Assembly: GCF_014656215.1 (NCBI RefSeq)
Contig: NZ_BNBZ01000016.1
Location: forward strand, 62,001 to 126,000
Origin: Streptomyces zaomyceticus
GTDB lineage: Bacteria > Actinomycetota > Actinomycetes > Streptomycetales > Streptomycetaceae
Direction: 5' to 3'
Length of the DNA: 64,000 nt
Position 1 is the first letter of the stretch, and each line of letters starts with the position of its first letter. The notes under the pieces were generated by a model that did no database searches, had not been told where the DNA came from, and saw nothing but the letters and a program-made list of their open reading frames with translations. The position numbers and the translations under genes were made by a program. Of this stretch, positions 49,528 through 60,301 are shown in pieces.

Positions 49528-50346
49528 TCAGGCTCCGACCAGCAGCCGCTCGCCCGCCGCCACGGCGGTGTCCAGCGTGTTCCCGGGCGGCGGGAAGGGG
49601 CAGATGAAGTGGTCGGCGAAGGCGCACGGCGGCAGCAGCGCACGGTTGAGGTCCACCGTCACCGAGCCGTCCGCCGCCGGGGCCGGCGGGCGCAGGAAGC
49701 GGAAGCGGTAGCTGTCCCGGCCGCTGGTGGCGTCCGCGAAGACCGCCCACAGCGAACCGTCGTCCTCGACGGCCACCTGGAGGGTGTGCTCCCCGCCGTG
49801 CAGGTCGAAGACCAGCTCCCCGGCGAGCCCGAGACCGCGCTCCCTGCCGTCGGCGTTCTCCACCCGCACGCTGCGGGCCTGCTCGTACGGGCGGAAGACG
49901 CCGGGCACCACCCAGCGCTCGTCGTACGGGGTGGCCTCGATGCCCCGGAAGGCGCCGCGCGCCTCGGAGCCGGGGTCGAAGTCCCGTACGGCCCAGAGCC
50001 CTTCGCGGCGCAGCACGACGAGCCGCCGCCCCGCCGACTCCACCCGGGACTCGTGGATCGGACCGTGGTCGGCGGTGAGCCGGACCGTGCCCGTGAGGGG
50101 CTTGCCGTCGACGGTGACCCCGTCCTCGGCCCGCGCGCTGAGGAGGATCTCGTCGCCGTCCTCCCGCCACTCCCCCGGAACGGCCGGGATACGTCCTTCC
50201 GGGAAGTCCGAGAGCCAGTGGGTGCCCGTGAGGGACAGCGGGCCGTACGAGGAGGAGACCGCGGCCTCCCGCTGCTCGTGCCAGTGCTGCCACTCCCGCC
50301 GGGCGTCCGCCCCCGCGCCCGTGCCGTTGTCGTTGTCCGTGCTCAT
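49528..50346 (-). CDS. DUF1684 protein, last gene of the organosulfur operon
   Basis: 272 residues, a soluble beta-rich family (DUF1684). Conserved-looking segments are SLTGTHWLSDFPEGR, ATPYDERWVVPGVFRPYE, FADATSGRDSYRFRFLRPP and LPPCAFADHFICPFPPPGN. The last region carries two Cys and a His that could bind metal. Function is not established. It follows the monooxygenase gene by only 5 bp and belongs to the eight-gene leftward transcript, so a role in processing the oxidised substrate is a fair guess. Confidence 0.82.
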   Translation of the reverse strand: MSTDNDNGTGAGADARREWQHWHEQREAAVSSSYGPLSLTGTHWLSDFPEGRIPAVPGEWREDGDEILLSARAEDGVTVDGKPLTGTVRLTADHGPIHESRVESAGRRLVVLRREGLWAVRDFDPGSEARGAFRGIEATPYDERWVVPGVFRPYEQARSVRVENADGRERGLGLAGELVFDLHGGEHTLQVAVEDDGSLWAVFADATSGRDSYRFRFLRPPAPAADGSVTVDLNRALLPPCAFADHFICPFPPPGNTLDTAVAAGERLLVGA

Positions 50347-50351
50347 GGAGC

Positions 50352-51659
50352 TCAACCTTTCCATACGGGCTCGGGGAGCCCGAGGTGCGACCGCAGCGTG
50401 GTGCCGGAGTACTCCGTACGGAAGACTCCGCGCTCCTGCAGCAGCGGGACGACCCGGTCGACGAAGTCGTCGAGGCCGCCGGGGGTGAGGTGCGGGACGA
50501 GGATGAAGCCGTCGGCGGCGCCCGTCACGACGAACTCCTCCAGGGCCGCGGCCACCGTCTCCGGGGTGCCCACGAAGGACTGCCGGCCGGAGGTCTCGAT
50601 GACGGTCTGACGGATCGACAGCCCCCGGGCCTCGGAGAGCGCCCGCCACTTCCTGGCCACCGCCACCGGGTCGGCGACCCTGACCCGGCCCTGGACCAGG
50701 GTCGAGTCGGGGTCGGGGTCGACGTCCGGGAGCGGCCCGTCCGGGTCGTAGCCGGACAGGTCGCGGCCCCAGATCTGCTCCAGGGCGAAGATCGCGTTCT
50801 GCGGGGAGACCTGCTGCCGGCGGATCTCGGCGGCCCGTTCCTGCGCCTCGGCGTCGGTGTCCCCGAGGGCGTAGGTGACCGCAGGCATGATCTTCAGGTC
50901 CTCGGGCGCGCGGCCGTACCGGGCGAGCCGCCCCTTGGCGTCGGCGTAGAACTCCCGGCCGGCCTCCAGGGTGGAGTGCCGGCTGAAGATCACGTCGGCG
51001 GCCGAGGCGGCGAACTCCCGTCCCTCGGCGGAGTCCCCGGCCTGGATGACGACGGGGTGTCCCTGCGGGGAGCGCGGGACGGTGAACTCGCCCTCGATCC
51101 CGAACTGCGGCCCGCTGTGGGCGAAGGGCCGCGGCTCCCCTTCCGGGGTCCAGGAGTCCCACAGCTCCCGTGCGGTGGTGAGGAACTCGGCGGCCCTGGT
51201 GTACCGGTCGGCCCGGTCCAGATAGCCGCCGCGCCGGAAGTTCTCGCCGGTGAAGGCGTCCGACGAGGTGACCACGTTCCAGGCGGCCCGGCCCGCGCTG
51301 AGGTGGTCGAGCGAGGCGAACCGGCGGGCCAGTTCGTACGGCTCGTTGAAGGTGGCGTTGACCGTGCCGGCCAGACCGAGCCGGTCGGTGACGGCGGCGA
51401 GGGCGTTCAGGACGGTGATCGACTCGGGCCGGCCGACGACGTCGAGGTCGTGGATGCGCCCGTTGTGCTCGCGCAGCCGCAGCCCCTCGGCCAGGAAGAA
51501 GAAGTCGAAGAGACCACGCTCCGCCGTCCTGGCGAGATGCTCGAAGGAGGAGAAGTCGATCTGCGAACCCGAGCGCGGATCGGCCCAGACCGTGGTGGAG
51601 TTGACGCCGGGGAAGTGCGCGGCGAGATGGATCTGCTTCCGGCCCGGAGCCGTACTCAT
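50352..51659 (-). CDS. NtaA/SnaA/DszA-family FMN-dependent monooxygenase
   Basis: 435 residues of the bacterial-luciferase-like superfamily. The N-terminal KQIHLAAHFPGVNSTTVW is the NtaA/DszA signature. GLFDFFFLAEGL, TVNATFNEPYELARRFASLDHLSAGRAAWNVVTS and HPVVIQAGDSAEGREFAA form the flavin site. Such enzymes use reduced FMN and O2 to cleave C-S or C-N bonds (NTA, dibenzothiophene sulfone, S-alkyl cysteine derivatives in Bacillus CmoJ). It needs a separate flavin reductase, which is not in the window. It overlaps the next monooxygenase gene (ATGA). Substrate inferred to be an organosulfur compound from the neighbours. Confidence 0.92.
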   Translation of the reverse strand: MSTAPGRKQIHLAAHFPGVNSTTVWADPRSGSQIDFSSFEHLARTAERGLFDFFFLAEGLRLREHNGRIHDLDVVGRPESITVLNALAAVTDRLGLAGTVNATFNEPYELARRFASLDHLSAGRAAWNVVTSSDAFTGENFRRGGYLDRADRYTRAAEFLTTARELWDSWTPEGEPRPFAHSGPQFGIEGEFTVPRSPQGHPVVIQAGDSAEGREFAASAADVIFSRHSTLEAGREFYADAKGRLARYGRAPEDLKIMPAVTYALGDTDAEAQERAAEIRRQQVSPQNAIFALEQIWGRDLSGYDPDGPLPDVDPDPDSTLVQGRVRVADPVAVARKWRALSEARGLSIRQTVIETSGRQSFVGTPETVAAALEEFVVTGAADGFILVPHLTPGGLDDFVDRVVPLLQERGVFRTEYSGTTLRSHLGLPEPVWKG

Positions 51660-52705
51660 GCGCGTGCTCCCGTCGTCGCCCGTGCGTCGGTGGCGTACTG
51701 GCTGACGGGGCGGGTGAGCCCCAGGTGGTCGCGGAGGGTGGTGCCCTCGTAGGCCTTGCGGAAGAGGCCGCGGTCCCCGAGCCGGGTCACGGTCTCGGCG
51801 GTGAACCGTTCCAGGTCCCGTTCGGGCACGGCCGGCACCAGGTGGAAGCCGTCGACCGCCCCACCGCCGTACCAGCCGGCGATCAGTTCGGCGAGGGCGC
51901 CGGGCCCGCCCTCGTACGCGTCGAGGTCGACGGTCGCCGAGAGCAGGACGCGCAGCTGCCCGGGGTCCCTGCCGTGGGCGCGGGCTCCCTGGTGCAGTTC
52001 GGCGCGCAGGGCCGCGGCCTCCTCCGCGGAGGAGGCCCGGATCAGGGCCACGTCGGCGTGGTGGGCGGCGGTGTCCCGGGCGGCGGGACGGGTGGCGTCG
52101 ACGACGGTCACCGGGTTGCCCTGCGGGGGCCGGGGAACGATCGAGGGGCCCTTGACCGAGAAGGTCGAGCCCTGGAAGTTCACGTAGTGGAGCTTGCGGC
52201 GGTCGACGAACCGTCCGGTCGTCACGTCGCGGATCTCGGCATCGTCCTCCCAGCTGTCCCACAGCTTGCGGGAGACCTCGGCGACCTCCCCCGCCTCCTG
52301 CCAGAGCTCGGCGGTGGGCGGCACCGGGCGGCGGCCGATGAGCCGGGCCTCGGCGGCGGTCGGGGAGACCGCGATCCGCCAGCCCGCCCGGCCCCGGCTG
52401 ACCCAGTCGAGGGTGGCGACGGCGGCCTGGACGTGGAAGGGCTCGGTGTGGGTGGTGGTCACGGTCGGCACCAGGCCGACGGAGCGGGTCTCGGGGGCGA
52501 CCCGGGCGAGGACGGCGAGCGCGTCGAGGCCGGGCCGTCCGAAGGAGTCGTCGTGGGTCAGGAAGTCGAGCGCGGCGGCCTCGGCGAGCCGGGCGAGCGC
52601 GACGGTGCGCGCGGCGGCGGTCCGGGCGTCGGCGGAGGCGGACGACGCCGGGGAGCCGCCCGGGGCGAGTTCGGCGGCGAGGTGGAGCGTTCGGGTGCTG
52701 GTCAT
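51656..52705 (-). CDS. LLM-class flavin-dependent monooxygenase
   Basis: A 349-residue second luciferase-like monooxygenase, shorter than its neighbour. LHLAAELAPGG opens the barrel. FLTHDDSFGRPGLDALAVLARVAP, ATLDWVSRGRAGWRIAVSP and PPQGNPVTVVDATRPAARD are the flavin-fold segments. The end (RKAYEGTTLRDHLGL) resembles the partner's end (RTEYSGTTLRSHLGL), so the two are paralogues and may form a heteromeric or sequential pair. It is translationally coupled upstream of the NtaA-like gene. Confidence 0.9.
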   Translation of the reverse strand: MTSTRTLHLAAELAPGGSPASSASADARTAAARTVALARLAEAAALDFLTHDDSFGRPGLDALAVLARVAPETRSVGLVPTVTTTHTEPFHVQAAVATLDWVSRGRAGWRIAVSPTAAEARLIGRRPVPPTAELWQEAGEVAEVSRKLWDSWEDDAEIRDVTTGRFVDRRKLHYVNFQGSTFSVKGPSIVPRPPQGNPVTVVDATRPAARDTAAHHADVALIRASSAEEAAALRAELHQGARAHGRDPGQLRVLLSATVDLDAYEGGPGALAELIAGWYGGGAVDGFHLVPAVPERDLERFTAETVTRLGDRGLFRKAYEGTTLRDHLGLTRPVSQYATDARATTGARA

Positions 52706-52838
52706 GCGGTCTCTCTCGGTGCGGATCCCGGTGCGGATCGCGGTGGGCCCGGAGCGGAACGCGCTCCAGGACGGGTGTGGCCCCCGGAGCGGAGCGCGGT
52801 CCGGCTCCGGGAGCGACGCCCGGGACGGCGGCGGTCGG

Positions 52839-53816
52839 TCAGTTCTTGGTGCGGGGCAGGCCGGGCGGGTTGATCTCCGACTTCTTCACGGCCTCGCCGT
52901 CGAGACCCCAGCGCTTGAGGACCTGGGCGTAGGTGCCGTTCTCGACGAGGTGGTCGATCGCGGCGGCGTAGGCGGCGACGAGGCCGCTGTCCTTCTTCGT
53001 GGTGGCGGCGATCTTGCCCTGGAGGCCGGCGCCCGCACCGGAGAACTTGCCGACGATCTCGGTCTGTCCGGCGGAGAGCACGTGGTACGCGGCGACGGGG
53101 TTGGGGCCCAGGTAGCCGTCGATCCGGCCGGACTGGAGCGCCAGGTAGTAGTCCGAGGTGTTCTGGTAGTACTTGATGTCGACCGGCTTGCGGCCGGCCT
53201 TCTCGTTCTGCGCGGACCAGTCGACGAGGATCTTCTCCTGGTTGGTGCCGGAGCCGACGGCGATCTTCTTCCCCGCCACGTCCTCGGGGCCCTTCACCGT
53301 CCAGCCGGAGCCCTTCTTCGCCTCGAAGGCGAGGTCGTCGAGGCGGTAGGTGGCGAAGTCGTACTTGTCCTTGCGCTCCTCGGTGACGGTCACGTTGGAG
53401 AAGACGGCGTCGTACTTGCCGCTGTCGAGGCCGACGAAGAGGTTCTCCCAGGAGACCGGGTTGAACTCGGGCTTCAGACCGAGGGCGTCGGCGACCAGGG
53501 TCGCGAGGTCGATCTCGACGCCGATCAGTGTCTTGTCGTCGGTGGCGTGGAAGGCGAGCGGCGGATTGCTCGTCGCGGAGACGCCGAGGACCAGGGTGCC
53601 TCTCTTGCGGACGGCCTCGGGCAGCCGGTCGGCGAGTGCGTCGACCTTGGGGGTGTGGACGCGGTTCTGCTCGGGGCTCAGGTTGATGCCGCCGGCGGTC
53701 TTCTTCGCCTCGGGCCCGGCCGCGCCTATGGCGGCGTCACCCGAGCCGCAGGCGGTGAGGACCCCGAGGGCGGTGAGTGAGGCGAGGGCGGTGAGAAGGG
53801 AGCGACGGGTCTTCAT
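52839..53816 (-). CDS. Amino-acid-type ABC transporter solute-binding lipoprotein (operon copy)
   Basis: A 325-residue family 3 binding protein. The lipobox is LTAC (Cys about 23). The mature domain begins VRKRGTLVLGVSATSNPPLAF; GVEIDLATLVADALGL, FSNVTVTEERKDKYDF and GSGTNQEKIL are ligand-lobe motifs. It delivers a polar amino acid-like ligand, probably a cysteine derivative or cystine, to the two permeases and ATPase upstream. It resembles the second binding protein at 59324 in size and ending (SEINPPGLP against SQISPPELP). Confidence 0.92.
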   Translation of the reverse strand: MKTRRSLLTALASLTALGVLTACGSGDAAIGAAGPEAKKTAGGINLSPEQNRVHTPKVDALADRLPEAVRKRGTLVLGVSATSNPPLAFHATDDKTLIGVEIDLATLVADALGLKPEFNPVSWENLFVGLDSGKYDAVFSNVTVTEERKDKYDFATYRLDDLAFEAKKGSGWTVKGPEDVAGKKIAVGSGTNQEKILVDWSAQNEKAGRKPVDIKYYQNTSDYYLALQSGRIDGYLGPNPVAAYHVLSAGQTEIVGKFSGAGAGLQGKIAATTKKDSGLVAAYAAAIDHLVENGTYAQVLKRWGLDGEAVKKSEINPPGLPRTKN

Positions 53817-53846
53817 GGCAGTACTCCTGAAGGGGAGGGGTGGTGG

Positions 53847-54656
53847 TCAGAGAACCTTGGAGAGGAAGGCGCGGGTGCGCTCGTGGCGTGGGCTGTCGAG
53901 CACCTCGGCCGGCGGTCCCTGCTCGACGATCCGGCCCTCGTCCATGAAGACCACGGTGTCGGCGACCTCGCGGGCGAAGCCGATCTCGTGGGTGACGACG
54001 ATCATGGTGGTGCCGGAGGCGGCCAGGTCCTTGATGACGTCGAGGACCTCGCCGACGAGTTCGGGGTCGAGCGCGGAGGTCGGCTCGTCGAAGAGGAGCA
54101 GGCCGGGTTCGAGGGCGAGCGCGCGGGCGATGGCGACCCGCTGCTGCTGTCCGCCGGAGAGCTGCTTGGGGTACGACTCCGCCTTGTCGGCGAGCCCGAC
54201 GCGTTCGAGCAGCTTCCGGGCCGCGGCCTCGGCCTCCTTGCGGGGGCGCTTCAGGGCCGAGACGGGGGCCTCGACGATGTTGTCCAGCACGGTGAGGTGC
54301 GGGAAGAGATGGAAGTTCTGGAAGACGAAGCCGATCCGGGTGCGCTGCTTGAGGACGTCCCGCTCGCGCAGCTCGTACAGCTTGTTCCCGGAGCGGCGGT
54401 AGCCGACGAGGGTGCCGTCGACGCTGACGGTTCCGCTGTCGACCTTCTCCAGGTGGTTGATGGTCCGCAGGAGGGTGGACTTGCCGGAGCCCGAGGGGCC
54501 GAGGACGACGGTGACCTCGCCGGCGCGGACGTCGAGGTCGATGCCGCGCAGGACGTGGAGCGGACCGAAGTTCTTGTGGACGGCCCGGATCTCGACCTTG
54601 GCCGTGGTGGTGGCGGTGGACCCGGCGGCCGGGTCGGCGGTGGTGACGGAGCTCAT
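53847..54656 (-). CDS. Amino-acid ABC transporter ATP-binding protein
   Basis: 269 residues of the polar amino-acid importer class. Walker A is GPSGSGKST, Q-loop FQNFHLFPHLTVLDNI, signature LSGGQQQRVAIARAL and Walker B LLLFDEPTSALDPE. It is the only ATPase in the cluster and must serve both permeases. ATGA overlap with the upstream permease; the binding-protein gene follows after 30 bp. Resembles TcyN/GlnQ-type ATPases. Confidence 0.95.
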   Translation of the reverse strand: MSSVTTADPAAGSTATTTAKVEIRAVHKNFGPLHVLRGIDLDVRAGEVTVVLGPSGSGKSTLLRTINHLEKVDSGTVSVDGTLVGYRRSGNKLYELRERDVLKQRTRIGFVFQNFHLFPHLTVLDNIVEAPVSALKRPRKEAEAAARKLLERVGLADKAESYPKQLSGGQQQRVAIARALALEPGLLLFDEPTSALDPELVGEVLDVIKDLAASGTTMIVVTHEIGFAREVADTVVFMDEGRIVEQGPPAEVLDSPRHERTRAFLSKVL

Positions 54657-55558
54657 CGGGCGCTCCCCTTCGCGTAGTGGCGTTCGACGTAGTGCTGGAC
54701 GACGGAGAGCGCGGTGGTGAGCAGGACGTACCAGGCGGTGGCGACCATCAGGAGCGGGACGACCCGTCCGTTGCGGCCGTAGACGACCTGCACCTGGTAG
54801 AAGAGTTCGCCGATCGCCATGACCGAGACGATCGAGGTGCCCTTGAAGAGCGAGATGATCTCGTTGGCGGCGTTGGGCAGGATCGAGCGCATGGCCTGGG
54901 GCAGCACGATCCGCCGCACCTGCCGGAGCCTCGGGATGCCGAGGGAGGCCGCCGCCTCCAACTGGCCCTCGTCCACGGCGAGTACGCCGCCCCGGACGAT
55001 CTCCGCCGCGTAGGCCGCCTGGTGCAGGGCGAGCCCGAGGACGGCGGCGCTCATCTCGCCGACCAGGCCCGTCGTGTCGAAGGAGAGGAAGCTCGGCCCG
55101 AAGGGGATGCCGATGCTCAGCTCCTTGTAGAGATAGGCGAGGTTGAACCAGAAGAGCAGCTGGACGATGAGCGGGATGGAGCGGAAGGCCCAGATGTAGC
55201 CGAAGGCGACGGACCGCAGGAACGGGCTGGCCGACAGGCGCATGAAGGCGAGCACGATGCCGATCGCGAAGCCGAGCGCGGTGCCGTGGAAGGTGAGCTG
55301 GAGGGTGACCCAGACGGCCCGGAGGATCGTCTCGGTGGTGAAGAACGCGGCGAAGACGTCCCACTCCCAGCCGGGGTTGGTGACGAGCCCGTGGACGAAC
55401 TGTGTGAGCAGGACGGCGGTGGCGGCGACGGCCACCCAGCGCCAGGGGTGGCGCACCGGGACGACCACGAGTTCGGCGGGCGCCGGCGGCGTGGTGACGG
55501 CGGTGCCCGGTTCCTTCGTGAGGCTCGGTGCGGCGGGCGGATCGCTGGTGAGAGACAT
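54653..55558 (-). CDS. Amino-acid ABC transporter permease (second)
   Basis: A 301-residue HisM/GlnP-type permease with five or more helices and the coupling loop VDEGQLEAAASLGIPRLRQVRRIVLPQAMRSILP. A long N-terminal hydrophilic tail (about 1-40) precedes the first helix. Helix 3 contains FRSIPLIVQLLFWFN. It likely pairs with the permease at 57408 as a heterodimer, as in TcyL/TcyM. It follows the FAD protein gene by 47 bp. Confidence 0.93.
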   Translation of the reverse strand: MSLTSDPPAAPSLTKEPGTAVTTPPAPAELVVVPVRHPWRWVAVAATAVLLTQFVHGLVTNPGWEWDVFAAFFTTETILRAVWVTLQLTFHGTALGFAIGIVLAFMRLSASPFLRSVAFGYIWAFRSIPLIVQLLFWFNLAYLYKELSIGIPFGPSFLSFDTTGLVGEMSAAVLGLALHQAAYAAEIVRGGVLAVDEGQLEAAASLGIPRLRQVRRIVLPQAMRSILPNAANEIISLFKGTSIVSVMAIGELFYQVQVVYGRNGRVVPLLMVATAWYVLLTTALSVVQHYVERHYAKGSAR

Positions 55559-55605
55559 GGCGGTTCCTCGGAGACGGGTCGGGCAGCGGGAGGAGCGGCG
55601 CGGGA

Positions 55606-57411
55606 TCAGGCGCTCAGCGGGGCCGGGAGGCGACACTCCCGGTCGCGCAGGAACGTCAGCGCGGCCCGCGCGGTGACGTCGTTCTGCCCGAAGGCGACCC
55701 CGCCCGTACGAGGCCGGGTGAAGGCGCTGTCGGTGCGGGCGGTGGTGTGCGGACCGAGCGCGAAGCGGCGCGGGTGGGGGCGTCCGTCGTGCTCGAGGAC
55801 CCGGCCGTCGACGGGGTCGACGACGAGGAGGCCGCTGGCGGTGGCGCGGGCTCCCTCCTCGTACAGGGCGCGCAGGAGCGGGCTGCCGGTGAGCTCCAGG
55901 GTGGGGTCGGGCAGCCGGGCCTCGACCAGGGCCCCGGCTTCGGTCCACTCCCCCGCCACGGCGGCGGAGGCGGCCCGGAAGACGCCGCGTTCCTCGTCGG
56001 TCTCGACGGTGATCCCGGGGCCGAGGAAGCTGACGACTCCGGCGCGGGAGAGGGCGAGGAGCTGGTGCAGCCGGGGGCCCGGCGGTCCGGAGGCGAGATA
56101 GCTGAAGAAGCCGTGCCACCAGCCGCCGAGGTCGATCCTCTTCCCGAGCCGCAGGAGTTGCCCGTAGACGGAGAGCAGGCCGGCGAAGACGGCGGCGTCG
56201 GGGCTGTGGGCGGGGTCGTGGCGGCGGGTCAGGTCGTCGGTGATGTAGTCGCGCAGCCCGTGCTGGAGCGCTTCCGCCGAGGTGAAGCGGATGCCGTCCA
56301 GGGGGTGGTCGAGAGCGTCCAGGTCGAGCCGGTCGGCGGGGTCGGGGACGGCCGCGGCGACGACGGCGGCGAGTTCGGCCCCGCGCGGCGGCGCTTCCTC
56401 GTAGGCCCGCTCGAAGTCGGACCAGGCGAGCGTGGTCCGCTCGGGGTGGGTGGAGAAGAGCCGGTGGTAGTGGGCCCAGCCGAGTTCCTTGTCGACGAGG
56501 GGCCACACATCGCGCCGGAAGTCGATCGGCCCGGTCCTCCGCAGCAGGGCGTCGGTCTGCTCGGGTCCGAAGAAGCGGGGCAGCGGGGGGCGTTCGCCGT
56601 CGAGGGCGTAGCCGAGCTTGGAGTGGTACGGGACTCCCCGCCGCGATCCGACGTGCAGGACCGGCTCCTTGCCCGACGGTATGTAGACGAGCGTGTCGCC
56701 CTCGCCCTCGTACCGTCCTCCGCGGCCCTCGGTGAGCAGCACCATCAGGTCGACGAAGGCGAGTCCGAAGCCCCGGACGATGACGGGTTCACCGGCGGGC
56801 AGCGCGCCGAGGTCGCTGTCGGCGGTGAAGTCGGGCGGCAGGTGGACGAGGCCGTGGCGGGCGGCGAAGTCGGCCAGGGCCCGCTGCTCCGGGTCGGGTT
56901 CGGCGTCGAGGTGGCCCACGGTGAGGACGACGAGGTCGGCGAGGAGGGGTGCGGCGGTGCCGTCCAGCCAGACCCGCTGGCGTCCCTCGCGGGGGCCGCC
57001 GATCCGCAGGGCGGCGGTGCGGTGTTCGTGGACGGTGACGGAGGCGGGCAGCGCGGCGCGGGCCCGCTCGTACACCCAGCGCAGATAGGCGCCCTGCTGG
57101 CGGCGGGTGGGGAAGGCGCGGCCGTCGATGCCGGCCCATTCGGCGACCGTGGGTCCGGGCCGTACGGGGCCCGCCAGCTCCACGGTCTCGTCGGTGAACA
57201 TGGTGACGTCCTCGGCCCGGGAGTTCATCCAGAGCAGGGGGGACTGTTCGGTGCGCCAGATCCGGCCGGGGCCGGGCGGGTGCGGGTCGACGAGGTGGAT
57301 GTCGAGGGGGTCGTCGCCGTACACCTCGGGCAGGTTGGCGGCGAGCCGTTCCAGGAAGCCGGTCCCCCGCGGCCCGGCGCCCACGATCACGATCGACGGT
57401 CGGGGGCTCAT
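55606..57411 (-). CDS. FAD/NAD(P)-binding protein in the organosulfur operon
   Basis: A 601-residue flavoprotein of the FAD-NAD(P)-binding family (PF13454-like). The N-terminal dinucleotide motif is IVIVGAGPRGTGFLERLA (GxGxxG). LWMNSRAEDVTMFTDE, VVLTVGHLD and VIVRGFGLAFVDLMVLLTEGRGG are family segments, and a second nucleotide-binding part follows. It is placed between two ABC permease genes, which is unusual for an enzyme, and overlaps the first by ATGA. It could be an N- or S-oxygenase, or supply electrons to the flavin monooxygenases; neither is shown by sequence. Confidence 0.85.
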   Translation of the reverse strand: MSPRPSIVIVGAGPRGTGFLERLAANLPEVYGDDPLDIHLVDPHPPGPGRIWRTEQSPLLWMNSRAEDVTMFTDETVELAGPVRPGPTVAEWAGIDGRAFPTRRQQGAYLRWVYERARAALPASVTVHEHRTAALRIGGPREGRQRVWLDGTAAPLLADLVVLTVGHLDAEPDPEQRALADFAARHGLVHLPPDFTADSDLGALPAGEPVIVRGFGLAFVDLMVLLTEGRGGRYEGEGDTLVYIPSGKEPVLHVGSRRGVPYHSKLGYALDGERPPLPRFFGPEQTDALLRRTGPIDFRRDVWPLVDKELGWAHYHRLFSTHPERTTLAWSDFERAYEEAPPRGAELAAVVAAAVPDPADRLDLDALDHPLDGIRFTSAEALQHGLRDYITDDLTRRHDPAHSPDAAVFAGLLSVYGQLLRLGKRIDLGGWWHGFFSYLASGPPGPRLHQLLALSRAGVVSFLGPGITVETDEERGVFRAASAAVAGEWTEAGALVEARLPDPTLELTGSPLLRALYEEGARATASGLLVVDPVDGRVLEHDGRPHPRRFALGPHTTARTDSAFTRPRTGGVAFGQNDVTARAALTFLRDRECRLPAPLSA

Positions 57412-58265
57412 CGCGCACCTGCCGTACCGCGGGCGTAGTGCCGCTCCACGTAGTACTGGCCGACACTGAGGACCGAGGTGACCACGACGTACCAGAGGGT
57501 GGCGACGAGCAGCAGCGGGATGACCTCGTAGGTGCGGTGGTAGACGAGCTGGGTCGAGTAGAGCAGGTCCTGGACGGCGATCACGGAGACGATCGAGGTG
57601 CCCTTGAGGGTGCCGATCAGCATGTTCCCGGCCGGCGGGACGATGGCACGCATGGCCTGCGGCAGCACGATGCGGGTGAGCCGGCGCCACCGGCCGAGCC
57701 CGAGGGACTCGGCGGCCTCGATCTGGCCCCGGTCGACGGAGAGGATGCCGCCGCGGACGACCTCGGCGGCGTAGGCGGCCTCGTGCAGGGTGAGGCCGAT
57801 GACGGCGACGGCGACGGGCCCGAGGAGGTTGACGGTGTTCACCCCGAGGATCTGCGGGTAGAGCGCGCCGATGTTGAACCAGAAGAGCAGCTGGACCAGG
57901 ATCGGGGTGGATCTGAAGAACCAGACGTATCCCCAACTCACCGCGCGCAGAACGGGGTTGGCGGAGAGCCGGAGTACGGCGAGCAGGGTTCCGAGGAGGA
58001 AGCCCAGGGCCATGACGACGGCGGTCAGCCACAGCGTGAGGACGAGTCCGCGCAGGACGGACACGGAGGTGAAGTACTGGGCGACCACGTCCCACTGGAA
58101 GGCCTTGTTGCGGACGACGGATACGAGGCCGAGGCCGATCAGGACGAGGACGAGGGTCGCGGCGGCCCACTGTCCGGCGCGGCGGGTGGGAACGACACGA
58201 AGGGGTGGTGCGGCCGGCGGTGGGGCGGGGTCCGTCTTGGAGAGGGTGGCGAGGGGTGTCGACAT
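57408..58265 (-). CDS. Amino-acid ABC transporter permease (first gene of the operon)
   Basis: A 285-residue HisM/GlnP-type permease. The coupling loop is VDRGQIEAAESLGLGRWRRLTRIVLPQAMRAIVP, and helix 3 has FRSTPILVQLLFWFN, nearly identical to the second permease. The start ATG at 58265 (MSTPLATL) has GGAG upstream; an in-frame extension to 58361 exists but lacks a site. It heads the leftward operon from the divergent promoter region 58266-58515. Confidence 0.92.
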   Translation of the reverse strand: MSTPLATLSKTDPAPPPAAPPLRVVPTRRAGQWAAATLVLVLIGLGLVSVVRNKAFQWDVVAQYFTSVSVLRGLVLTLWLTAVVMALGFLLGTLLAVLRLSANPVLRAVSWGYVWFFRSTPILVQLLFWFNIGALYPQILGVNTVNLLGPVAVAVIGLTLHEAAYAAEVVRGGILSVDRGQIEAAESLGLGRWRRLTRIVLPQAMRAIVPPAGNMLIGTLKGTSIVSVIAVQDLLYSTQLVYHRTYEVIPLLLVATLWYVVVTSVLSVGQYYVERHYARGTAGAR

Positions 58266-58413
58266 GTGAAGGGCTCCGTGGATGCCAGGGGGCGGATCGA
58301 ACACGGGAGTGCACACGGGAACGCACGGGGCGTTCACCCTGGAGTGCGCCTTCACACGCACGGCGAGCCATTGAGCGCGGATGCGGGCCCCTCAGCCCGA
58401 TGTCCGCCCTGTG

Positions 58414-58444
58414 AGGCTACGGCCGTCGAGCGGAGGCTTGTCAA
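58414..58444 (-). promoter_or_regulatory. Promoter candidate of the leftward organosulfur operon
   Basis: On the minus strand: TTGACA (58444-58439), 19-bp spacer, TAGCCT (58419-58414). The -35 is perfect, the spacer is long. The leader to the permease start would be about 140 nt. Confidence 0.5.
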
Positions 58445-58480
58445 GTCCGTCCGGAATATGAGCCGTTCGTCTCATCGTGG

Positions 58481-58509
58481 TTGACGGGGCAACGGATGCC
58501 TGTTCCACT
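58481..58509 (+). promoter_or_regulatory. Promoter candidate of the leader peptide transcript
   Basis: TTGACG (58481-58486), 17 bp, TCCACT (58504-58509), only a few bases before the leader-peptide ATG at 58516. If used, the leader peptide would be nearly leaderless, as is common for such peptides. Confidence 0.45.
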
Positions 58510-58515
58510 GGGGCC

Positions 58516-58584
58516 ATGCATCCGCAGCAGCTGGTCACGCGCTCCCACATCGACTTCGGTCGCGTGTGGTCCTCTTCCTGTTGA
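58516..58584 (+). CDS. Sulfur-associated leader peptide (22 aa, Cys at the end)
   Basis: A short open frame of 22 codons plus stop. Its core LVTRSHIDFGRV and terminal SSSC match the streptomycete 'putative leader peptide' pattern (LVTRxHxDxxRVxSxxC) that I know from genes for sulfur acquisition. The single Cys is the last codon before TGA, so ribosome stalling there when Cys-tRNA is scarce would be informative. A pyrimidine-rich, G-poor leader follows. It should control the downstream GNAT and binding-protein genes by attenuation. The peptide is probably non-functional apart from being translated. Confidence 0.8.
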   Translation: MHPQQLVTRSHIDFGRVWSSSC

Positions 58585-58829
58585 GCCGACCCTCTGCGCC
58601 TTCGCCTGCCTTTCTCTTCAGCGCACCCCTGCCCGGGGCTTCCTTCGTGATGTCCTTCGCGGCACCTTCACCTGCGCGGCACTGAGCCTCGACTCCCCTC
58701 GCTCTCCCTTTTCCCGGTTCTCCTGACCCTGTTCGCCGTGTCCTCCGCCGTTCCCCCGGCGCTCGATCGGCGTTCGACCGGCGTGGGTTCGACCTTCTCC
58801 TCGTCGTTCTCTCCGCCCGAAAGAGACAC
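58585..58829 (+). promoter_or_regulatory. C/T-rich, G-poor leader, possible Rho-dependent attenuator
   Basis: 245 bases between the leader peptide and the GNAT start, markedly pyrimidine-rich on the coding strand and without a strong hairpin, unlike the rest of the window. Such a bubble is a typical Rho loading site. If the ribosome finishes the leader peptide quickly, Rho could terminate here. When it stalls at Cys, Rho would be kept off. Confidence 0.5.
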
Positions 58830-59327
58830 ATGCCTCTCACGCCCAGCCGTGAGTCCGCGCTGTCCGTGCGCCGGACCACGGCCGACGACCCGTTGGCGCG
58901 CCCGCTCCTCGACGAGCTGGCGCACGAGTACACGACCCGTTACGGCTCCGCGCACGACCTGAGCCGCTATCCGGCGGAGGAGTTCGCCCCTCCGCACGGC
59001 GCCTTCCTGCTCCTTCTGGAACAGGGCAGGCCCGTCGCGGGCGGCGCCTACCGTCGCTACGACGACCGCACCGCCGAGCTGAAGCGGATCTGGACCCACT
59101 CGGCGCACCGCAGGCGCGGCCTCGCCCGGCGCGTCCTGACCGTGCTCGAACGTGAGGCCGCCGCCCGCGGCTACTCCCGCATCTATCTGACGACCGGGCC
59201 GCGCCAGCCCGAGGCCAGGGGCCTCTACCTGGCGAGCGGCTACCGCCCGCTCTTCGACGTGTCCGCCGATCCCGAGTCGATCGGCCCGCTGCCGTTCGAG
59301 AAATTCCTGGAGAACTCGAAACCATGA
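58830..59327 (+). CDS. GNAT-family N-acetyltransferase, SnaA-like by context
   Basis: 165 residues, a single GNAT domain. The acetyl-CoA loop is RIWTHSAHRRRGLARRVLTVLEREA, with YSRIYLTTGPRQPEARGLYLASGYRPL. In Bacillus the first gene of the ytmI/tcy-cmo operon encodes an S-alkyl-cysteine N-acetyltransferase (SnaA); this gene has the same place relative to a cyst(e)ine-type ABC transporter and flavin monooxygenases. The start at 58830 has GAAAGAG upstream. It overlaps the binding-protein gene by ATGA. Substrate specificity is inference. Confidence 0.85.
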   Translation: MPLTPSRESALSVRRTTADDPLARPLLDELAHEYTTRYGSAHDLSRYPAEEFAPPHGAFLLLLEQGRPVAGGAYRRYDDRTAELKRIWTHSAHRRRGLARRVLTVLEREAAARGYSRIYLTTGPRQPEARGLYLASGYRPLFDVSADPESIGPLPFEKFLENSKP

Positions 59328-60301
59328 CCACGCGCACGCGCCCCGGCACCGCTCGCACCACCGTCGTCTTCGCCCTGATCACCGGCGCCGCACTCGCCCT
59401 CACCGCCTGCTCCGGGGGCGAACCCGCGACCGCCCCGGCCGGCGCCTCGGGCGCGCCGGGTCCGGCGAAGGGCGCGCTCCCGAGCGAGGACGTCGTGTCG
59501 GCGGTGAAGAAGAACGAGGCGGCGGCGAAGCTGCTTCCGGCCGATGTACGGCAGCGGGGCAGCTTCACGGTCGCCTCCTCCGTCGCCTCCCCGCCCAGCT
59601 CGACCTATCTGGCCGACGGCAAGACCGTCGTGGGAGTGGACGCCGACTTCTCCGCGGCCGTGGCGAAGGCCCTGGGCCTCGAGGTGAAGCGCGAGGTGGT
59701 CGGCTTCGAGGCGATCCTGCCGGCGCTGGGCAGCGGCAAGTACGACGTGGGCACCGGGAACTTCGGGGTGACCGAGGAGCGGCGCAAGACCATCGACTTC
59801 GTGACGTACATCAACGACGGCCAGGGCTTCGCGAGCCGGGCGGACAGCCCGTTGAAGGCGGTCACCGACCTCACGCAGCTGTGCGGTCTGAAGGTGGCCG
59901 TGAACGCGGGCACGACCTTCGAGCAGTCCCTGGAGAAGAACAAGGGCCGGTGCGCGGAGGCGGGCAAGAAGCCGTACGAGGTGAGCGTCTTCAGCGAGGC
60001 GGGGACGGTCTGGATGTCGCTCCAGCAGGGCCGCAGCGATGTCACGATGAGCACGATCAACGGTCTGCGGTACGCGGTGACGCAGCAGAAGGGCGTGAAG
60101 TTCCTCAACGAGTACCGGCGGCTCGACGTGGGCTTCGCCTTCAAGAAGGGCACGCCGCTGGCGCCCGCCTTCCAGGCGGCGGTGAACGGCCTGAAGGCGG
60201 ACGGGACGTACGACCGGATCCTGAAGAAGTGGGGGGTGACGGGCTCGGGCATCGCGAAGTCGCAGATCTCCCCGCCGGAGCTCCCGTCCCCGGAGAAGTA
60301 G
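59324..60301 (+). CDS. Amino-acid-type ABC solute-binding lipoprotein (second)
   Basis: A 325-residue family 3 binding protein. The lipobox is LTAC (Cys about 29). The mature part has VGVDADFSAAVAKALGLEV, GTGNFGVTEERRKTIDFVTY, LCGLKVAVNAGTTFEQ and FAFKKGTPL. Two internal Cys (LCGL, GRCAEA) may form a disulphide. It is coupled to the GNAT gene (ATGA) and has no permease of its own on this strand, so it should feed the divergent transporter, giving two binding proteins, two permeases and one ATPase. Confidence 0.92.
   Translation: MTTRTRPGTARTTVVFALITGAALALTACSGGEPATAPAGASGAPGPAKGALPSEDVVSAVKKNEAAAKLLPADVRQRGSFTVASSVASPPSSTYLADGKTVVGVDADFSAAVAKALGLEVKREVVGFEAILPALGSGKYDVGTGNFGVTEERRKTIDFVTYINDGQGFASRADSPLKAVTDLTQLCGLKVAVNAGTTFEQSLEKNKGRCAEAGKKPYEVSVFSEAGTVWMSLQQGRSDVTMSTINGLRYAVTQQKGVKFLNEYRRLDVGFAFKKGTPLAPAFQAAVNGLKADGTYDRILKKWGVTGSGIAKSQISPPELPSPEK

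Follow-up and report, generated by a model that had tools for sequence, protein, structure and literature searches.

Upstream of a GNAT acetyltransferase gene of Streptomyces zaomyceticus, a frame of 22 codons (58516-58584) closes with a Cys codon (TGT, 58579-58581) directly before its stop codon (TGA, 58582-58584). Does this frame encode a peptide through which the cell gauges cysteine, and how would such a gauge act on the genes behind it? We addressed this question in the window, that is, the whole stretch of 64,000 nt analysed here, and in related loci of other genomes. The initial annotation had described the frame and its final Cys codon, which we read in the same way, and had taken the peptide for a cysteine leader of a sulfur regulon; this assignment is well supported by a conserved family, an invariant Cys and paralogs in front of sulfur genes. 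Very probably, a cysteine-responsive leader attenuator lies upstream of the GNAT-SBP operon. To the whole explanation, a ribosome-mediated attenuator that responds to cysteine and in which termination is most likely brought about by Rho, we assign a probability of roughly 0.6. New relative to the earlier reading are a UGU rule at the sensor codon, a hairpin within the reading frame and leaders with no gene behind them.

Table 1. Features of the leader locus and its neighbourhood, in window coordinates.
Feature	Position	Strand	Basis or remark
Rest of left arm: FAD-NAD(P)-binding protein, permease, TcyN-like ATPase, binding protein, two luciferase-like monooxygenases, then DUF1684 protein (in reading order)	49528..57411	-	
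Divergent ABC permease	57408..58265	-	Best NCBIfam model cystine ABC permease, below cut-off; start inferred from ORF
-35-like TTGACG of leader promoter	58481..58486	+	TTGAC at about the same distance in 120 aligned leaders
-10-like TCCACT, 17-nt spacer, ends 6 nt before ATG	58504..58509	+	120 aligned leaders; predicted leaderless start
Leader peptide ORF, MHPQQLVTRSHIDFGRVWSSSC and stop	58516..58584	+	Kept in 10 ortholog loci and 118 readable wider-scan loci (among the matches listed)
In-frame RNA hairpin spanning the H-I-D-F-G-R-V-W codons, with cUUCGg loop	58546..58568	+	-10.1 kcal/mol
Sensor cysteine codon TGT	58579..58581	+	Directly before stop; TGT in 118/118 (among the matches listed)
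Conserved GCCGACCCTCTGC directly after stop	58585..58597	+	Alignments; putative role
C-rich, A/G-poor leader segment, candidate Rho loading region	58585..58829	+	Composition
GNAT acetyltransferase gene, first gene downstream of leader	58830..59327	+	PF00583, E 4e-17
Amino-acid type solute-binding protein (SBP_R)	59324..60301	+	Domain and NCBIfam profile matches

On the left arm, both permeases, the ATPase and the binding protein have cystine-transporter models of NCBIfam as their best match, and one such model is found within the first four matches of SBP_R, in all cases below the equivalog cut-offs. The gene content of the two arms (49528-58265 on the minus strand and 58830-60301 on the plus strand) is reminiscent of the ytmI/tcyJKLMN/cmo (snaA) alkylcysteine operon of Bacillus subtilis, with cystine-type ABC parts, two luciferase-like monooxygenases and a GNAT. 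At the divergent left arm, no leader of the window leader's family was found.

Conservation of the leader was assessed in two sets of loci. A search with the GNAT protein in sixty relatives and in the own genome yielded 13 loci whose identity reached 58% or more across most of its length; this survey covered genomes with a close GNAT ortholog. Eleven of these loci, the own one among them, belong to Streptomyces; their GNAT orthologs share 68% identity or more, and each locus carries the leader. No leader was found at the two non-Streptomyces loci (G053 and G054). In the two nearest relatives (GNAT identity of 94 and 93%), the leader lies 182-183 nt upstream of the GNAT match. In the other eight loci (68-75%), a luciferase-like monooxygenase, LLM3, sits between the leader and GNAT; hence, the leader is retained while the first gene differs. 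For the second set, GTDB contigs were scanned for DNA encoding HIDFGRVW, a pattern that contains no Cys, and at least 119 loci were obtained. One of the 119 listed (L104) was left out because its tile cuts the leader, leaving 118 readable loci, which form a phylogenetically uneven sample whose p-values ignore shared ancestry. Among these listed matches, Cys occupies one fixed position in 118 of 118, though it is absent from the pattern. Conservation across the ortholog and wider-scan loci rules out a chance ORF.

Different genes follow the leader in the wider scan. Among the 118 loci listed, the first recognised gene is LLM3 in 30, SBP_R in 28, GNAT in 13, LLM1 in 5, SBP_L in 1 and DUF1684 in 1, with none recognised in 24 and a tile edge in 16. 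The best model of LLM3 is alkanesulfonate monooxygenase, below cut-off. In three of the 24 loci without a recognised gene (L079, L093 and L157), a DUF4395-type gene lies 47-55 nt downstream of the leader, and the match was confirmed in the one of them that was scanned. This position behind the leader suggests that DUF4395 may be part of the sulfur regulon.

Besides the window leader, about eleven leaders of the own genome share the core R-x-H-x-D-x-x-R-..-S-A-x-C. Behind them lie genes for a nitrite/sulfite-reductase-family protein with a PAPS reductase (cysH) that passes its cut-off, a cysteine synthase that exceeds the threshold of the cysKM subfamily, an ABC ATPase with aliphatic-sulfonate as best model and a luciferase-like pair with an NtaA/DmoA monooxygenase. 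The others are followed by DUF1684, a dipeptide-type binding protein, a symporter of the dicarboxylate family, a 2OG oxygenase, a GST-like protein, a ROK regulator and, in one case, a gene without assignment. By family, 4 of the 11 look sulfur-linked, and a short ORF with a C-terminal Cys at a fixed place is found before sulfur genes in many species. L014/L070, L017 and L018 were left out of the paralog set; L014/L070 was rejected as a paralog leader because it reads RRHVDFREER and lacks Cys.

Peptides of this family are already named 'putative leader peptide' by NCBI (NF042934). The core RxHxDLxRxxSAxC is common to the window leader family, to NF042934 (the cis_reg_atten model) and to the Cys-rich leader peptide models NF042936 (Ms4527A) and NF042933 (Ms5788A), from which the window peptide differs by its HIDFGRVW subfamily, its in-frame hairpin and the Cys directly before the stop. 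Four of ten relatives scanned, nine of them from the own genome, pass the NF042934 cut-off. The window peptide itself passes no curated NCBIfam cut-off; its only match is to NF042936 (22.2 bits vs a cut-off of 45), and it is not reported for NF042934 at E up to 1.

Conserved sequence upstream of the frame looks like a promoter. When 120 leaders are aligned at the start codon, T is found at position -12 in 81%, A at -9 in 82% and T at -7 in 89%. A standard-consensus (TATAAT-type) promoter scan found none at the leader, so that the promoter call depends on this conservation. Their consensus contains no Shine-Dalgarno-like block between the -10 hexamer and the start codon, and a leaderless start of the kind found in actinobacterial cysteine leaders is predicted. 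Cys-rich leaderless uORFs have been described in mycobacteria, where they are kept between species and are occupied by ribosomes in M. smegmatis (Shell 2015, PMC4633059). These poly-Cys ORFs resemble the window leader in being leaderless, in their C-terminal cysteine and in preceding cysteine-metabolism genes. The window leader differs in having one Cys and no run, and in showing no general sign of binding-site sequestration. In alphaproteobacteria, PMC8632094 describes uORFC-8-2 before cysS, a short uORF with Cys codons that acts by ribosome-mediated attenuation; unlike the window leader, it has tandem Cys codons, mostly UGC, and a U-tailed terminator. The accessible part of a reannotation of S. 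lividans gives eight leaders, none of them cysteine-dependent.

These comparisons point to a selected ORF behind promoter-like sequence, with an invariant Cys encoded as UGU, a sulfur-linked family and a C-rich segment that is not unusually structured. In the mechanism that we propose, a leaderless transcript would begin at the AUG of the 22-codon leader. With ample Cys-tRNA, ribosomes would clear the UGU codon and depart, the C-rich RNA past the stop would be exposed and transcription would stop upstream of the GNAT-SBP operon, most likely via Rho. In cysteine shortage, a ribosome would stall at UGU and shield the first bases past the stop, and RNA polymerase would continue into the sulfur-scavenging genes. 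The stall, the direction of the response and the part played by Rho are what we infer from the features above; the initial annotation had likewise proposed that stalling keeps Rho away from the C-rich segment.

The segment behind the leader argues for Rho by its composition. Its 245 nt, which begin at 58585 and run up to the GNAT gene at 58830, comprise 107 C, 62 T, 57 G and 19 A (44%, 25%, 23% and 8%). Among windows of the same length in the 64 kb, both strands counted, 0.35% attain its pyrimidine fraction of 0.69 and 2.1% its C-minus-G excess. The C-rich segment of about 245 nt noted in the initial annotation stands, while 'G-poor' holds only in a relative sense. The same bias recurs in the 56 of the 118 listed loci that have a predicted gene 60-450 nt on, where C averages 0.476 and G 0.257 after the leader vs 0.353 and 0.331 in 224 control gaps; pyrimidine content separates these segments (n=56, among the matches listed) from the control gaps with an AUC of 0.97. 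RNA structure is not in excess. The 60 nt after the stop have a mean fold z of -0.41 (n=114, among the matches listed), and the whole window leader folds no better than shuffles (z -0.40); with fold z near zero, a conserved post-stop RNA structure over all loci was rejected. A search for U-tailed or terminator-like stems returned 0 sites in 58400-58900 (shuffles mean 0.4), and an intrinsic terminator in the window was rejected accordingly. In Rfam, no curated family was matched, and two chance-level matches both fell below the gathering score. By composition, the segment has the sequence character of a Rho attenuator, being C-rich, G-poor and poorly structured, without an intrinsic terminator.

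Because the segments are C-rich and show neither excess structure nor a U-tailed terminator, we favour Rho over a hairpin terminator or masking of the Shine-Dalgarno (SD) sequence, and consider Rho the probable off-switch. TnaC of E. coli is set by free tryptophan through its nascent peptide, and catabolic genes are induced in excess, which is unlike the present proposal; the likeness is that a ribosome stalled at the leader end would cover a site next to the stop at which Rho loads. In the part of Seliverstov 2005 accessible to us (PMC1262725), Rho and pyrimidine-rich motifs are proposed for the cys-operon leaders of Mycobacterium, P. acnes and B. longum, and TnaC-tna is cited as a parallel of Rho attenuation. 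As in the window, these are Cys leaders without a terminator; they are reported for Mycobacterium, Propionibacterium and Bifidobacterium, and within that part we found no Streptomyces cys leader named. The leader-to-gene gap is only 50-89 nt in six LLM3-type loci and one GNAT locus (among the matches listed), which is tight, leaving little room for Rho termination before the gene.

Alternatively, the full transcript could always be made, and a ribosome stalled at Cys would refold the leader and open the ribosome binding site of the gene. The poly-Cys leaders of M. smegmatis, which are leaderless Cys leaders of the same type, reportedly act by such translational attenuation. A 2026 paper likewise notes that cysteine genes of M. 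smegmatis are subject to translation attenuation. The GNAT SD lies in a short TCCTTC/GAAGGA hairpin in six close relatives (L049, L050, L102, L117, L160 and L181). At GNAT-first loci, the SD is paired locally more often (mean 0.77, n=8; 0.70 in the window) than in controls (0.60, n=289). However, complementarity between leader and SD is not enriched over shuffles (68 loci, mean z +0.29), and SD pairing of the first gene over 69 genes equals that of control genes (0.62 vs 0.60, n=289, p 0.58); over all loci, neither comparison gives a signal of SD sequestration. Moreover, 100-400 nt usually separate leader and SD, and a C-rich, G-poor composition is not predicted by this scheme. We regard it as unlikely.

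The sensor codon itself is under a rule that we found stated in no publication, within a search that reached full texts in part. The sensor Cys is TGT in 118 of 118 listed HIDFGRVW leaders (89 of 89 distinct core sequences), and in 121 of 121 once the window and its two nearest relatives are added, whereas long ORFs from the same tiles use TGT for 17% of their 1346 Cys codons. Outside the subfamily, we scanned for a general core pattern ending in TGT or TGC in 101 Streptomyces genomes and 296 genomes of the class. In Streptomyces, the TGT-ending pattern gave 197 matches in 100 genomes and the TGC-ending pattern 0. In the class, the TGT-ending pattern was found in 95 genomes (29 of 114 genera) vs 1 for TGC, and reversed-pattern controls gave 0 and 1. 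Among 31 class loci that were fetched, 30 carry TGT, one of them with no stop nearby, and the single TGC case is likewise leader-like. The His, Asp and Arg codons of these leaders vary synonymously, and among their other Cys codons TGC outnumbers TGT by 13 to 3 (Fisher p 7e-8, which ignores ancestry).

The rule has exceptions in a further 38 Streptomyces leaders: TGC occupies the sensor position in five, and seven have no Cys there. The five (L055, L057, L073, L161 and L168) are RHVDFGHVVSAACCRA/V leaders, and in four of them the next codon is TGT. Leaders of the class HIDLxRVxSAAS/G (L005, L052, L053, L057, L058, L158 and L189) have AGT, AGC, GGT or GGC at the sensor place; most carry TGC four codons upstream of it, and two have no Cys at all.

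The codon rule bears on whether the peptide, rather than its decoding, is what matters. TnaC and SpeFL are nascent-chain arrest peptides that respond to a ligand, and the conserved R-x-H-x-D-x-x-R-...-C peptide could halt the ribosome in the same manner. The His, Asp and Arg residues are constant, being required by the pattern, while their codons vary across genera, and they lie 6-11 residues before Cys, that is, within the upper exit tunnel. Yet arrest of this kind leaves the exclusion of UGC at the Cys position unexplained, and the targets are supply genes, expected to go up in shortage and not in excess. Overall, we consider ligand-dependent arrest quite improbable. In the attenuator that we favour, the relevant event is the reading of UGU, a codon decoded via wobble by a single tRNA-Cys(GCA).

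A second constraint acts on the codons upstream of the sensor. In the stem over the H-to-W codons a single base is free: the third position of the Arg codon bulges out, and all four letters occur there among the 118 listed HIDFGRVW leaders. In the same leaders, Gly is GGT in 116 of 118 (usage 9%) and Val is GTG in 118 of 118 (usage 41%). The mean hairpin energy of 121 leaders is -10.2 kcal/mol vs -3.6 kcal/mol for codon-usage recodings, and only 0.1% of 3000 recodings reach the mean of the leaders. Covariation cannot be claimed for this hairpin because its pairs hardly vary. The stem ends 10 nt upstream of UGU; any function of the hairpin in pausing RNA polymerase is speculative.

Such a strongly selected hairpin would suit a classical attenuator, with the UUCG hairpin as 1:2 element, GGTCG-YGACC pairing as the alternative and an intrinsic terminator. 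Directly behind the stop, GCYGACCC... is conserved in the C-stop class, and its forms GCCGACC/GCTGACC are complementary to the leader GGTCG; inserts shift the block in some loci (L098, L101 and L115), and L151 lacks it. The GGTCG-YGACC pairing is plausible, but covariation cannot be shown because GGTCG hardly varies. The block lies where a ribosome stalled at the adjacent Cys would sit, so the 58585..58597 segment may be reached by that ribosome, and alternative pairing with GGTCG is also possible. The LLM3 subclass (27 loci) adds a GC hairpin past the stop. Within 0-75 nt of the leader stop, LLM3 loci including L080, L138 and L173 share a conserved hairpin, GGGCCG/CGGCCC, that carries a pyrimidine tail; many have a second hairpin, CTCGG/CCGAG. 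The GC hairpin of this subclass is possibly a second RNA element or a terminator. Against classical attenuation, the window lacks the U-tailed stem, folding past the stop is as weak as given above, and GACC is missing at the pairing site in 6 of the 27 LLM3-subclass loci. In addition, Cys adjoins the stop, so that stalled and terminating ribosomes cover nearly the same RNA. We consider this scheme very unlikely.

A difficulty for the cysteine-responsive attenuator lies in leaders that have no gene to control. In 19 of the 118 listed loci, the divergent gene is FADx or LLM1 and the 800 nt behind the leader hold no right-arm gene; in 17 of these no coding-like forward ORF starts within 700 nt. 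Where the next gene at orphan loci was identified (L096, L105, L112, L148, L150 and others), it is convergent, DUF5685 or ATP_bind_1. The orphan loci retain the promoter-like sequence, the leader, the hairpin codons and UGU; one of them (L086) is without clear TTGAC and TCCACT. Among the 17 orphans, 15 different core sequences occur; their Arg and Thr codons have drifted synonymously, while the H-I-D-F-G, V-W and TGT codons are unchanged (the pattern demanded H-I-D-F-G-R-V-W as residues). Attenuation purely in cis leaves these 17 leaders unexplained. Likewise, the earlier claim that stalling turns on the right arm is consistent with the window and does not fit the orphan loci. A trans-acting trp leader peptide has been reported (PMC7298713). 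That the orphan RNA or peptide also works in trans, with no gene behind needed, would account for 17 loci that keep all elements and drift only synonymously, but they could also be recent relics held by shared ancestry, and we regard trans action as highly improbable.

Tentatively, and at slightly less than even odds, we propose that the gauge of Actinomycetes needs UGU, a weakly read codon that would halt the ribosome earlier at low charged tRNA, with the UUCG hairpin possibly timing RNA polymerase against the ribosome; orphan leaders acting in trans would be a weaker further step. A change of UGU to UGC is a one-base probe of this gauge, since the peptide is unchanged and only decoding differs. 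The near-absolute UGU rule could in this way separate hungry-codon sensing from nascent-peptide arrest across a bacterial class. The regulon at stake includes sulfate reduction and cysteine synthesis. Searching for the leader is a cheap route to its members, and could place uncharacterised monooxygenases, DUF1684 and DUF4395 in sulfur supply.
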